Virus record (IMG/VR): IMGVR_UViG_3300048838_001845
Location: 1-34,518 of that record
Origin: a virus
Direction: 5' to 3' (one strand)
DNA length: 34,518 nt
Positions 19,702 through 34,518 of the stretch are shown here, one piece after another. The notes beneath the pieces are model-generated. The model saw only the letters and a list, made by a program, of their open reading frames with translations, did not search any database and was not told the origin of the DNA. How positions within the stretch are numbered: position 1 is the stretch's first letter; every line of letters begins with the position of its first letter. Made by a program: the position numbers and the translations under genes.

Positions 19702-20043
19702 CTACGAGCCGGCGCTGTAATCGTTTGGGCTGCGCCTCGCATCCATCACCGCGAGCTGCGTGATGATCGACTGTTGAACGCGCGACTGCTCGCGCTGGGT
19801 GTCGGCAATCTGTGCCTGCGTGCGCGCCTGCTCGCGCTGGGTGTCCGAGATCTGCGCCTGCGTGTTGCTGATGCGATCCAGCGTCGCAGCGATCTCTCGC
19901 ATCATTTGCCGTGCCTCCTGGCGGTCATGCACGACCAGCCGATAGAGCAGCCACAACAGCACCAGCACGATCACGTTCGTGATGATGGATGTGGCGTTGG
20001 TGGCAACGTTCCAATCTGTGTAGCTCATGTGGCTTTGAATCAC
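19702..20043 (-). CDS. Single-span membrane protein with coiled-coil repeats
   Basis: 113 residues from GTG 20043 (GTGA overlap with the gene before); ATG 20028 is an alternative. One membrane helix near residues 19-40 (IITNVIVLVLLWLLYRLVV) and then a long amphipathic coil with a 14-residue unit repeated twice (TQAQI-DTQREQ). It could be a holin partner, membrane scaffold or spanin-like component; no family recognised. Confidence 0.6.
   Translation of the reverse strand: MIQSHMSYTDWNVATNATSIITNVIVLVLLWLLYRLVVHDRQEARQMMREIAATLDRISNTQAQISDTQREQARTQAQIADTQREQSRVQQSIITQLAVMDARRSPNDYSAGS
19780..19863. repeat. Two tandem 42-bp units in the membrane/coiled-coil gene
   Basis: Units 19780-19821 and 19822-19863 are almost the same and encode the 14-residue coil repeat. 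The length is a multiple of three, so unit gain or loss would keep the frame. Confidence 0.75.
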
Positions 20044-23048: not shown

Positions 23049-23431
23049 CAACGCAACCAACACAACAACCCGCGCTCAGCACGCCGCTGATCGCCATCCC
23101 GTCACCGATCACGCCGAAGGTCGCCGAGATCTTCGACGCGCACGGCTGCCGCTTATGCCACATCAACGCCGGCATGGCCGCCGAGATGGTCGCGCTGATT
23201 AACTGCAGCGCCCAGGCCGTGCAGATGTGGGATGAGGCGATGGAGCGCCACGCCAAGGTCGACACGCTCGTCGCCGCGCTGAAGAAGCTCAGCGCCTTCG
23301 TGTATCGCCTCAACCGCGACGAGAAGTGGATCACCGAAGAGCATCTCATCAACGCCGCCGCCGATGGCGAGGAGGCCGTGCGCCTCATCGATCCGGCATG
23401 GACCGTCTACATGGAGGCGCGCAATGGCTAA
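23045..23431 (+). CDS. Hypothetical early protein
   Basis: 128 residues. After a proline-rich start (about 1-25), FDAHGCRLCHINAGMAAEMV holds a CxxC pair, and the rest is helical (AVQMWDEAMERHAKVDTLVA, then ALKKLSAFVYRLNRDEKWIT). It precedes the replication gene, overlapping it by 8 bases. Could be a replication or regulatory helper; not recognised. Confidence 0.6.
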   Translation: MTTQPTQQPALSTPLIAIPSPITPKVAEIFDAHGCRLCHINAGMAAEMVALINCSAQAVQMWDEAMERHAKVDTLVAALKKLSAFVYRLNRDEKWITEEHLINAAADGEEAVRLIDPAWTVYMEARNG

Positions 23432-24179
23432 TTTGTCGATGCCTTGGATCAAGCTCTACATAGACCTACTGGATGATCCAAAGATCGGCAAGCTGCCGCG
23501 CTCGGCGCGCCTGCGCTTCATCGAGTTGATGCTGCTGGCCGGCGAGTGCGACGCCGACGGCGAGCTTGTCATCGGAGGCAAGCCCATGACCACAACCGAC
23601 ATCGGATGGCGCCTGCGCGACACCGCCAAAAACATCGAAGCGGAGATCGCCGCGCTCGTCGACGCCGGCATTGTGACCATCCACGGCGACCGCATCTACG
23701 TGACCAACTTCTCCAAACGCCAGGGGCGCAGCCAGTCCGAAAAGCGCGAAGCGTGGCGAGAACGCAAGGCGAGAAAGCAGGGGGATTCACGCGGGAATCA
23801 CGCGGGAATCACGCGGGAATCACGCGGGAATCCCCCTACAGACAAAGACAAAGACAAAGAACAAGACAAAGAGAAAGACAAAGACAAAGACTTGTTTGCA
23901 TTGGAGGCGCGCGCGAGCGCTAAAGATCGCCTGGTCGATCTGTTCATCGGAGCCGGCCTGCGCGAGCGCGACGCCGGCACCTACGCGCAGCACATCGCCG
24001 CCACTGTCGACAGCGAGTCGCATATGCGACGCGTCGAGAATGCAATCAGGAGTCTCGTTTTAGGCCTCCGTGATCAGAAAACCGTGCGCAACCCCGCCGG
24101 CCTCGTGATCAGCACCCTGCGCGAATGGGAACTCATCCCCGAGAGCATGGAGCTGGTCGCCACGCTGAGGAACTCATGA
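23424..24179 (+). CDS. Replication initiator/replisome organiser-like protein
   Basis: 251 residues from ATG 23424. Residues 1-100 (WIKLYIDLLDDPKIGKLPRS, then ARLRFIELMLLAGECDADGE, ending YVTNFSKRQGRSQ) match the N-terminal winged-helix domain of phage replisome organisers/DnaD-like initiators. Residues 120-157 are a low-complexity linker whose DNA contains 11-bp iterons and GACAAA units; residues 158-251 form a helical C-terminal domain (DRLVDLFIGAGLRERDAGT). Lambda O has the same plan of DNA-binding head, origin-bearing linker and helicase-loading tail. No replicative helicase loader is evident next to it. Confidence 0.75.
   Translation: MANLSMPWIKLYIDLLDDPKIGKLPRSARLRFIELMLLAGECDADGELVIGGKPMTTTDIGWRLRDTAKNIEAEIAALVDAGIVTIHGDRIYVTNFSKRQGRSQSEKREAWRERKARKQGDSRGNHAGITRESRGNPPTDKDKDKEQDKEKDKDKDLFALEARASAKDRLVDLFIGAGLRERDAGTYAQHIAATVDSESHMRRVENAIRSLVLGLRDQKTVRNPAGLVISTLREWELIPESMELVATLRNS
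23780..23888 (+). other. Candidate phage replication origin inside the initiator gene
   Basis: Four perfect tandem 11-bp units (23788-23831) are framed by GGGGGATT (23780-23787) and its complement AATCCCCC (23829-23836), then eight 6-base units of GACAAA type (23841-23888), which are purine-rich and A-rich. Iterons next to an easily melted tract within an initiator gene is the design of the lambda origin. Confidence 0.6.
23788..23831 (+). repeat. Four perfect 11-bp direct repeats (iterons)
   Basis: Unit CACGCGGGAAT at 23788, 23799, 23810 and 23821. The period is about one helical turn, putting each copy on the same DNA face. As 11 is not a multiple of three, successive copies encode different residues, so the repeat is kept for DNA rather than for protein. 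Confidence 0.9.
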
Positions 24180-31037: not shown

Positions 31038-31997
31038 ATGAGCAAAGAACTCGTTACCACCAGCCCAAAGGCCGACTACCAGGCCGCGACCGCTTATCTG
31101 ATGTCTCTCAGCACCACCGGGCGCAGCAGCATGGAGTCGACGTTGCGGCTGGTGGCGCGCATCATGGGCGCCGAGGATTACACGCAAGTGAACTGGGCAT
31201 CGCTCAACGCCGCAAACGTGCAGGCGCTCGTCGCCAAAATCCGCGACACCCCCACTGAGCGAGGATCGGCCAGATCGCCCAATAGCGTCGCCACCGTCCT
31301 CAACGCCCTCAAAGGCGTGGCCAAGGCCGCCTGGCGACGCAACACGCTCGCCACCGACGCATGGGAGCGCATCCGCGACCTGAAAGCCCCGCGTGGCTCA
31401 CGCCTGCCGGCTGGCCGCGACATCGCGCCCATCGAGCGCGCCGTGCTCATCTCCGCCGCCGTCGAAGATCCACGCATCGCCGGCATCCGCGACGCTGCCA
31501 TCATGGCCGTGCTGATGGCCACCGGCATGCGCCGCGCCGAGCTGGTCGCGCTGGCCCTCGAAGATGTGGAGATGAGCACCGGCAAAATCACCATCATCGG
31601 CAAGGGCGACAAAGAGCGCACCGCCTACATCGCCGACGAGCCGATGCAGGCCGTGCGCGACTGGCTGCAGGTGCGCGGCATGAATGAAGGGCCGCTCTTT
31701 TGCGCGATCACCAAAACCGGCAAATTGCAACGCGACCGGCACATGAGCCCGACCGCGCTGCACTACATCATCCAGCGCCGCGTGACCAGCGCCGGCCTTA
31801 GCAAGATGACCGCGCACGACTTCCGCCGCACGCTCGCCGGCGATCTGCTCGATGAGAACATCGACATCGCCACCGTCGGCGAGCTGCTCGGCCACTCCGA
31901 CCCGAAGACCACCAAACGCTACGACCGCCGTGGCGAGCGAGCGAAGAAGCGCGCCGCCACGCACGTGCACGTGCCCTACAAGCGAGGCAATTCATGA
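31038..31997 (+). CDS. Tyrosine recombinase/integrase
   Basis: 319 residues. N-terminal SAM-like core-binding domain (about 10-110), then catalytic domain: ATGMRRAEL (Arg165), GKGDKER (Lys about 189-192), TAHDFRR (His260, Arg263), LLGHSDPKTTKRY (His286, Tyr295). All catalytic residues are present. Similar in size and layout to XerC/XerD. It would integrate or excise the element or resolve multimers. It follows an AT-rich leader with TTTAAG/CTTAAA and overlaps the next gene by 4 bases. Confidence 0.94.
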   Translation: MSKELVTTSPKADYQAATAYLMSLSTTGRSSMESTLRLVARIMGAEDYTQVNWASLNAANVQALVAKIRDTPTERGSARSPNSVATVLNALKGVAKAAWRRNTLATDAWERIRDLKAPRGSRLPAGRDIAPIERAVLISAAVEDPRIAGIRDAAIMAVLMATGMRRAELVALALEDVEMSTGKITIIGKGDKERTAYIADEPMQAVRDWLQVRGMNEGPLFCAITKTGKLQRDRHMSPTALHYIIQRRVTSAGLSKMTAHDFRRTLAGDLLDENIDIATVGELLGHSDPKTTKRYDRRGERAKKRAATHVHVPYKRGNS

Positions 31998-32524
31998 TCA
32001 CACTCACCGTCAGAGAACTCATCACCGAAGACTGGAGCCGTTTTGCGCGAGAGCGGGATGCTTATGCCGCCACGCTGCCCGACAAACCCTCCAAGAAATA
32101 TCTACTGGCCGGCTGGTCGCCGATGAACTTCGCCGGCCTGTATGTTTGGCGTGCGGTCGATGTGGTGCTCTATGTGGGCATCAGCGCCAATGTCGGCGAG
32201 CGCCTGTATTCACACTTGGGAGATGAGCGCGGCCACAGATCGCAGCAGATCAGCCAGGTCGGGCAGCTCGTGAAAGCAAACGAGCCACAGTCGCACGGCT
32301 GGAGCATCGACGTTTATCCGATCAGCGATCTTCGTGAAGGGCGCAGCCCCATCGCCGGCGCGCCGTATGTAGATCGGCTGTCTGAATATGAAGCGATCAC
32401 AATAGACGCATTGCAACCGGCATTAAACGAGAGTTTGAATCACAAGCGCATGCCACTGCCCGCGCACATCCGCGCCGACGGCAAGGGCGCGATGGATGCC
32501 GCCAATGCAGCGTTTGGAGGTTGA
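31994..32524 (+). CDS. GIY-YIG family endonuclease-like protein
   Basis: 176 residues. GLY (48-50) and YVG (60-62) strands, Arg70 and Tyr72/His74 in ERLYSH, and EYEAITIDALQPALN with a metal-binding Glu (about 131-133) and Asn145 make a GIY-YIG core. The rest has no added DNA-binding domain visible. It could be a phage host-DNA nuclease, repair nuclease or free-standing homing-type enzyme. Placed directly after the integrase. Confidence 0.8.
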   Translation: MITLTVRELITEDWSRFARERDAYAATLPDKPSKKYLLAGWSPMNFAGLYVWRAVDVVLYVGISANVGERLYSHLGDERGHRSQQISQVGQLVKANEPQSHGWSIDVYPISDLREGRSPIAGAPYVDRLSEYEAITIDALQPALNESLNHKRMPLPAHIRADGKGAMDAANAAFGG

Positions 32525-32525
32525 T

Positions 32526-32816
32526 GTGAGCGAAGAACGCGAGACCTATGACATGACCAGCGCCATTTTGGACGCAACCGAGCGCCGGCAGGCGACAACC
32601 GAACATCTTGCCGCCTTCGGGCGCGATGTGTTGGAGTGGATCATCGCTAACGATTTTTGGAACGATGACGCCGGCGAAGACTTCATGCCATTGGCCGAAA
32701 AACACGGGCTTGCGCAGCGCGTGCCATATGACCCAGAGACGCATGGCGAGATTGACGCCGACGAAGGCGTCATGATCTGGTGGATAGACGCGACGCAATG
32801 GGACGGTGGCAAATGA
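32526..32816 (+). CDS. Hypothetical acidic protein
   Basis: 96 residues from GTG 32526, GGAGG five bases upstream (a closer match than the out-of-frame ATG two bases earlier). Acidic and helical (SEERETYDMTSAILDATERR, FGRDVLEWIIANDFWNDDAG), ending with MIWWIDATQWDGG. Not recognised. Overlaps the next gene by ATGA. Confidence 0.6.
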   Translation: MSEERETYDMTSAILDATERRQATTEHLAAFGRDVLEWIIANDFWNDDAGEDFMPLAEKHGLAQRVPYDPETHGEIDADEGVMIWWIDATQWDGGK

Positions 32817-33001
32817 CCACCCTGCCCCACCCCGCGCCGGCCCCTGATCGCGCCGACTTGCGCATCGTGCAGCACCCTGCACAATATGTTGCACCGATCA
32901 ACCTGAACGATCCACATGCGCGTGGATTCATCGCCGCTATCGCCGAAGGCCTGAAGCAATGCAACCAGACACCCAGCAACAACACAGGGCGACCGTCCTG
33001 A
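32813..33001 (+). CDS. Small protein upstream of serine recombinase
   Basis: 62 residues from ATG 32813; its end overlaps the recombinase start by 43 bases, suggesting coupling. Proline-rich start, then RIVQHPAQYVAPINLNDPHA. It might control the recombinase; not recognised, and too small for a confident call. Confidence 0.5.
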   Translation: MTTLPHPAPAPDRADLRIVQHPAQYVAPINLNDPHARGFIAAIAEGLKQCNQTPSNNTGRPS

Positions 33002-34518
33002 TTTACGCCCGCCGCTCGAAGGTCATCAACGAGAGCGACCGTTTCAACGTCGACGGCCAGCTCGCCGCGCTGCGCGCCGAATGCACCAAGCGCGGCTACG
33101 ACCTGCCGCCCTTCCGCATCGAGGAATACATCGACGCGCAAGGGCATCGCAGCGGCCGGCACGAGCACACCCGCCCCGAATGGCTGAAGCTGCGCGCCAG
33201 GCTGAACGCGCCCGACGTGCTCGCCGTCATGTTCTACACCATCGACCGCGCCAGCAGATCCGTGCGCGACTTCGCCGACCTGATCGAGGTGTGCAAGACG
33301 CTGAACGTCGGCATCATCTCCATCATCGATGGCGTGGATACGCTCGCCGGCGTGGGCCGCCGCCACCTCGACCTTCACCTGCGCGCCATGATCGCGCAGG
33401 ATGAATCAGACCTTGCCAGCGAGCGCATGACGCGCCGCATCATGCTGAAGCGCCAGGCTGGTATCCCGCACGGCACCCCACCCTTCGGCACCCGCTACGC
33501 CGGCCAGGGCGCGGCCATGCGCCGCGTCGCCAATGAGCACGCGCCGACCGTCGTGCAGCTCATGCAGTGGTATACCGAAGGCATCAGCAACCGCGCCGTG
33601 ATGCACCGCGCCAATGCTGCCGGCCTGCTCCACGTCGACCGCCACGGCCGGCTGGAGCCGTTCAGGCTCGGCGCCGTGCAAACCATCATCAGCAACGTGC
33701 TGGCCTATGCCGGCTACCTGCAGCACGGGCCGCACACCAAGCGAGACAAGGTGCAGCTCGCCGGCGAAGGCGCGCTCGTCGACCGCTACGCCCGCGCCGT
33801 GGGTGCGGTGCGCTCGCCGGCCATCGAGCCGATCATTTCCATGGAAATGGCCGAGGCCGTCATCGAGCGCAAGCTGGGACGTCAGCGCACAGGCCGGCCG
33901 GCGCGCTCGCTCGCGCTGCTCACGCATGCGCTGTGGCACGAAGGGCGAAGGGTGTATAGCGCCGCGCGGCATGGCGGCCGCTATCGGTTGCACGGCCGTG
34001 GCTCTGAATCCTGGCCGATCGCGCACGTTGACAGCCAACTGCTCGACCAGCTCGCCGGCCTGCGCTTCAGCGACGCGCTACAGGCCGCCATTGTGGCGCA
34101 CGTGATGGATCACACCCGCGACGATGAACGCGACGCGCTGCGCGCACGCCAGCGCGACTACGAGGCACGTTTACAGCGCGTGCAGGATATGTATGAAACG
34201 GGGATGCTCAGCCGCGCCGATTTTCAATCGCGTTTCATGGCCATCGATGGCGTGCTGAGCGAGACGCGCCGGCTGCTCCTCGCGCCGTCGCAGATCGACA
34301 CCGTGTTGCAGCAGCTCCGGATTCTCGCCGAGACGCTGCACCTCATCCCGCACGAGCAGCGCCGGCGCGCTTTGTATCACCTCATCGAGCGCGTCGACAT
34401 CGACGCCGGCGGCATCATCACCCGCGTGCAGTTGCGGGAATGGGCACGGGCCGCATTCCATCAAACGATAGAAGCGGCCCGTGTTCTGAGGCTAAACGAT
34501 GCCCTGGACAGGATTTGA
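32959..34518 (+). CDS. Large serine recombinase (integrase)
   Basis: 519 residues; stop is the last codon of the window. Catalytic domain: YARRSK (Ser20), YTIDRASRSVRDFADLIE (DRxSR, Arg97 and Arg100), DESDLASERM helix; then the recombinase domain (about 165-300, IPHGTPPFGTRY) and a coiled coil (about 385-440, RDYEARLQRVQDMYETGMLS). Where a zinc ribbon with four Cys is normal (about 320-350), it has LLTHALWHEGRR and no Cys at all; Cys occur only at 42 and 112. ATG 32959 has GAAGG nine bases upstream. Confidence 0.93.
   Translation: MQPDTQQQHRATVLIYARRSKVINESDRFNVDGQLAALRAECTKRGYDLPPFRIEEYIDAQGHRSGRHEHTRPEWLKLRARLNAPDVLAVMFYTIDRASRSVRDFADLIEVCKTLNVGIISIIDGVDTLAGVGRRHLDLHLRAMIAQDESDLASERMTRRIMLKRQAGIPHGTPPFGTRYAGQGAAMRRVANEHAPTVVQLMQWYTEGISNRAVMHRANAAGLLHVDRHGRLEPFRLGAVQTIISNVLAYAGYLQHGPHTKRDKVQLAGEGALVDRYARAVGAVRSPAIEPIISMEMAEAVIERKLGRQRTGRPARSLALLTHALWHEGRRVYSAARHGGRYRLHGRGSESWPIAHVDSQLLDQLAGLRFSDALQAAIVAHVMDHTRDDERDALRARQRDYEARLQRVQDMYETGMLSRADFQSRFMAIDGVLSETRRLLLAPSQIDTVLQQLRILAETLHLIPHEQRRRALYHLIERVDIDAGGIITRVQLREWARAAFHQTIEAARVLRLNDALDRI

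Follow-up and report, generated by a model that had tools for sequence, protein, structure and literature searches.

A probable iteron-type replication origin within the replisome organiser gene of a phage likely to infect Chloroflexota

The placement of a replication origin inside the gene of its own initiator is already known from lambda, SPP1, TP901-1, Tuc2009, 80alpha and the plasmid pSK41. In lambda, iterons with units of about 18 bp and a weak A+T-rich stretch lie midway along the initiator gene O. The organisers of TP901-1 and Tuc2009 bind direct repeats in their own genes, which act as origins (PMC8965321), and the origins of SPP1 consist of direct repeats plus an AT-rich unwinding element, the oriL repeats lying within gene 38 (PMC6316719). 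ORF20 of 80alpha does not complement in trans, a plasmid carrying ORF20-21 replicates autonomously, and the ori is apparently embedded in the organiser gene (PMC5499656). On plasmid pSK41, four Rep boxes occupy the centre of rep and are bound by the N-terminal domain of the protein, the central linker that this region encodes being dispensable (PMC5703833). Given these precedents, the locus described here is a further case of a known plan, with a variant iteron; the phage group and the sequence of the iteron unit are new to this survey.

We analyzed the virus record IMGVR_UViG_3300048838_001845 of IMG/VR over its full 34,518 bases, hereafter called the window, which may be a fragment. Profile matches identified a phage terminase and integrases among its genes, and the sole genome match of the terminase is an Anaerolineae MAG, at 64% identity, which makes Chloroflexota the likely host of this phage. 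The gene of interest (23424-24179, + strand) encodes 251 aa and had been proposed to be replisome organiser-like; its sequence bears this out and places it among the replisome organisers of the PF09681 family. The N-terminus matches PF09681 (Phage_rep_org_N) over residues 8-118 with E = 2.4e-9 and 37.6 bits, above the curated cut-off of 23.3 bits, and the protein also matches the PHROG replisome organizer (6e-13). No other Pfam family matched it at E <= 0.1, and the lambda O family, RepA_N and the DnaB_2 C-terminal domain are absent from its Pfam matches. The protein is laid out as an N-terminal winged helix (about residues 8-118), a disordered linker (about 121-150) and a helical C-terminal part. 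The AlphaFold model is confident at residues 21-100 (pLDDT at least 90), where helices are followed by a two-strand wing, and falls to pLDDT 49-63 at residues 121-150; the Foldseek neighbours are CRP/ArsR-type wHTH proteins, with weak E-values. Two DNA elements, an iteron array and a purine-rich tract, both map to the disordered linker, between the DNA-binding domain and the C-terminal part.

The array lies some 360 bp into the gene and holds four exact copies of the 11-bp unit TCACGCGGGAA on the + strand, at 23787-23797 (codon frame 0), 23798-23808 (frame 2), 23809-23819 (frame 1) and 23820-23830 (frame 0), confirming the original prediction that four perfect units lie out of phase with the codons; the peptides beneath them read SRGN, NHAG, ITRE and SRGN. 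A tandem-repeat search extends the array to 23782-23832 (period 11, 4.6 copies, 97% match). The inverted repeat predicted on both sides is present, its arms measuring 9 bp rather than 8 (AGGGGGATT at 23779-23787 and AATCCCCCT at 23829-23837), and the single strand of the enclosed region (23779-23837, + strand) folds as a hairpin with a fold z of -10. An intrinsic terminator was considered for this region and rejected: the array folds well, yet it is a purine tract and not a run of T that comes after it. When one mismatch was allowed, TCACGCGGGAA matched the window at six places where 1.26 were expected, and none of 100 shuffles reached six. Moreover, the period-11 run scores 36, while scores did not exceed 14 across 2000 synonymous-codon shuffles of the organiser gene, in which codons were drawn from the other genes of the window; the run of four iterons is therefore neither chance nor a codon effect. 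The accompanying argument that protein function cannot keep out-of-phase units identical is sound so far as it reaches, but a recent tandem duplication alone could yield four identical copies, so that the case rests on the relatives rather than on copy identity.

Directly beside the array, the GACAAA-rich tract that had been predicted to end at 23888 was confirmed and runs slightly further, from 23840 to 23891 (+ strand), as judged by tandem-repeat search; it has counterparts in most relatives. It is composed of GACAAA-like purine-rich hexamers, has a GC content of 35% and, at 85% purine, exceeds every other 52-mer of the window in purine content. In duplex stability it falls in the lowest 0.4% of 50-bp stretches, giving an easily melted region next to the iterons, and its lysine codons are all AAA, whereas the other genes use 18 AAA to 46 AAG. 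We propose this tract as an unwinding and helicase-entry element.

The locus can thus be set against the described systems. The parallel with lambda O/ori drawn in the original prediction holds for the plan, and the units differ in sequence and length as stated there (11 bp against about 18 bp, with unrelated unit sequence); the organiser itself has no lambda O Pfam match. TP901-1 and Tuc2009 likewise have direct repeats inside the organiser gene, with different repeat sequences, and Tuc2009 orf16 is annotated as 'contains origin of replication'; their proteins have other domains than the PF09681 of the window, TP901-1 Rep having DnaB_2 with a weak HTH_36 match and Tuc2009 Rep2009 having Rep_Org_C. 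In 80alpha, repeats are followed by a tract as in the window (A-rich in 80alpha) and a putative rep_origin is annotated in the gene, whereas ORF20 carries a Phg_2220_C domain and a weak HTH_36 match instead of PF09681 and is adjoined by a DnaC-like loader. Plasmid pSK41 shares four repeats at the centre of the initiator gene but is a plasmid, and its RepA_N domain is not a Pfam match of the window organiser. Closer in protein family are organisers of Firmicutes phages, namely those of phi11 (phi11_15) and Listeria A500 (gp44), which have an N-terminal PF09681 domain like that of the window; in these two and in Oenococcus phiS11, linker repeats are again followed immediately by a purine or AT hexamer tract. 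The sites of these three phages are GTTACG/GTAACG palindromes as opposed to TCACGCGGGAA, and a DnaB_2 C-terminal domain, not found in the window organiser, is present in phi11 and A500.

Used as a direct query, the full organiser protein gave no matches in viral_contigs, phages or genome_contigs, and relatives came only by way of Anaerolineae genomes, alignment scans and DNA patterns. The closest ones are L164 (59%, over domain and linker), L163 (48%) and L041 (44%, domain). All three have two TCACGCGNGA units each, at 11-bp spacing and with the site as in the window, followed by a purine tract, and their units encode different peptides and are read in different codon frames. The repeat is thus kept in position but not as peptide in close relatives, as had been predicted; none of these relatives was seen to keep the peptide without the repeat, and the reverse was seen in L162. 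The four perfect copies of the window look as if an array of two units had expanded. The L041 organiser (888-1600) has its C-terminal part in a different frame once past the purine tract, which may reflect sequencing error, slippage or frameshifting.

Among 2.9 million viral contigs, the two-unit pattern TCACGCGNGANTCACGCGNGA, which relies on DNA only, matched nine stretches, L164 and L163 being found in this way by DNA alone. Eight fall within winged-helix initiator genes (PHROG replication-initiation or replisome-organizer) or immediately behind them, the ninth, L165, being not initiator-like; the reversed pattern gave two matches, neither in an initiator-like ORF, and two exact window units (GAATCACGCGGGAATCACGC) gave none. 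Three GTTACG sites at 11-bp spacing were found in 65 stretches, in 17 of which an ORF at the match fits a profile of the same domain. In two of the contigs the array and the reading frame part company: the initiator frame of L161 ends inside the array, and in L162 the stop codon precedes the array, so that the iterons lie wholly beyond it; a frameshift error in these contigs may be involved. These data bear on the idea that the array is a phase-variation switch, in which slippage by an 11-bp unit shifts the frame, truncates the C-terminal part and leaves a DNA-binding fragment. Eleven is indeed not divisible by 3, truncated proteins of 162-216 aa would result if the array changed by one or two units, and L041 has its C-terminal part out of frame, but the unit is kept in relatives even at two copies and with divergent units, and in L162 it lies where slippage cannot switch the initiator, which makes a switch most unlikely. 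As further observations on what follows the iteron, initiators that share it can have a different tract: L158, L160 and L162 carry ACCCG-type repeats in place of the purine tract, and L159 has a pyrimidine CTCCC tract, a strand bias opposite to that of the purine tracts.

We then considered the family more broadly. The Anaerolineae genome search found homologues in 14 genomes, and others came from scanning viral contigs with two alignments. Once duplicates were removed, 66 genes encoding 150 aa or more remained, or 75 with nine homologues from cultured phages; terminase-bearing relatives had no PF09681 match. In most homologues, the linker holds GTNACG-type sites followed by a purine-rich tract. 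Among the cultured phages, phi11, A500, phiS11, Javan393, IPP18, StB20 and StB12 show GTTACG sites in the linker with tracts of the GAAGAA or GATATA type behind them (phi11 and A500 confirmed as PF09681, the other five found by similarity). Across the linkers of the 66 homologues, GTNACG/CGTNAC occurs 234 times, compared with 97 +/- 8 in synonymous shuffles, and the sites fall in all codon frames; a peptide-only cause of the iterons was rejected. In the 75 genes, neighbouring GTNAC centres lie most often 11 (63 cases), 10 (38) or 12 bp (19) apart, and the tract starts at a median of 12 bp after the last site. The linker is without GTNAC in 13 of the 75, including the window, where the site is ATCACG; some of these carry other repeats and a few none. 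The alternative raised by the perfect identity of the four copies, and by the two units of the closest relatives, is that of functionless low-complexity repeats left in the linker by recent tandem duplication. We regard it as highly improbable, as the sequence of the unit, its spacing and its position are found again in divergent relatives, also across host phyla, and the sites are commoner than in synonymous shuffles.

Two kinds of rearrangement were observed at homologous loci. In L045 (546-1653, - strand), the first 51 residues are PF09681-like, and behind them, in a different frame, comes an HTH_36 initiator that has its own linker with different repeats (of the CCTAGTGACT type) and then an ACAAGA-rich stretch; to judge from the sequence, this looks like a natural swap of a DNA-binding domain together with its repeats. 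HNH endonuclease domains occur in or near the organiser linker of L048, L052 and L100 (and of L038, by eye), and in L048 and L052 the HNH domain sits between the DNA-binding domain and the repeats.

The tract takes such forms as ACAGAT, ACAGAA, GAAGAAGTA, GATAAA and CAGAAC in relatives. In the linkers of the 66 homologues, ACAGA was counted 180 times against 63 +/- 6 in synonymous shuffles, and AGAnnnAGA 291 times against 44 +/- 6. However, 259 of these 291 occurrences lie in one codon frame, and the 6-bp period of the tract across homologues (autocorrelation 0.61) is largely expected from dipeptide repeats (0.52 in synonymous shuffles), so that conservation of the tract may be partly at the protein level, and a peptide-only cause was rejected only in part. 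We consider the tract to be probably a melting or loading element. For the B. subtilis origin, a strand-specific loading element has been proposed for DnaD (PMC10201434). The DnaD element 5'-TnnT-3' is found 665 times on the complement of the tract against 453 expected, but was not adopted as an explanation because the common ACAGAT form, by inspection, lacks it. More tentatively, the tract might be more than weak DNA, namely a conserved strand-specific single-strand element that dictates the strand for helicase loading and is common to unrelated winged-helix phage initiators; it is conceivable, at a similarly speculative level, that such an element compares in role to DnaA-trios or to the DnaD recognition element. 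The recurrence of hexamer purine tracts behind iterons across the family is less familiar than the in-gene origin plan and is the most interesting by-product of this survey.

The gene family, the domain layout, the presence and non-randomness of the two elements and the DNA conservation in relatives are direct observations. Based on these and on the analogous systems, array and tract very probably form a theta-replication origin of the phage inside its own initiator gene, which would provide for binding, melting and helicase recruitment; the iteron origin that had been predicted in this gene is supported both by the position conserved without peptide in relatives and by the published origins of the same plan, for which experimental support exists. 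From conservation and related systems, we infer that origin firing would involve binding of the 11-bp iterons, one per helical turn, by the N-terminal winged helix, assembly of the bound organiser into a nucleoprotein complex, and melting of the adjoining weak purine-rich hexamer tract by this complex, after which the C-terminal part would recruit the host replicative helicase or its loader to the opened strand. This recruitment step is unsupported by the gene content, because a search of early ORFs in this possibly fragmentary record recognised neither a helicase loader nor a replicative helicase. The suggested check of GC skew likewise lent no support, the cumulative skew of the window having no extremum at the 23.8-kb repeat site. 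Units that are imperfect palindromes, with an inverted repeat flanking them, would also suit an operator, by which the initiator controls its own transcription rather than the start of replication. This reading is very unlikely, given that the array sits so deep in the gene with a weak purine tract behind it, an arrangement found in most relatives, and that in-gene repeats of the same plan are origins in published cases (PMC8965321, PMC5499656, PMC5703833); operator and origin roles are not exclusive.

Read as an origin, the locus adds a phage that probably infects Chloroflexota to those with an in-gene iteron origin. It would also make the origins of this large initiator family readable from sequence, as GTNACG-type linker sites spaced by 11 bp and then a hexamer purine tract, and hence predictable in uncultured phages, and it gives the low-complexity linker a testable reason, namely selection on DNA and not on peptide. 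Elsewhere in the window, genes for a DEAD/SNF2-like helicase and a DNA methylase lie downstream of the organiser gene. The top-scoring tandem repeat of the window (score 135) is a 42-bp repeat in two copies at 19780-19864, and the stretch 31038-34518 encodes a tyrosine integrase and, 1 kb further on, a large serine recombinase that reaches the end of the record.
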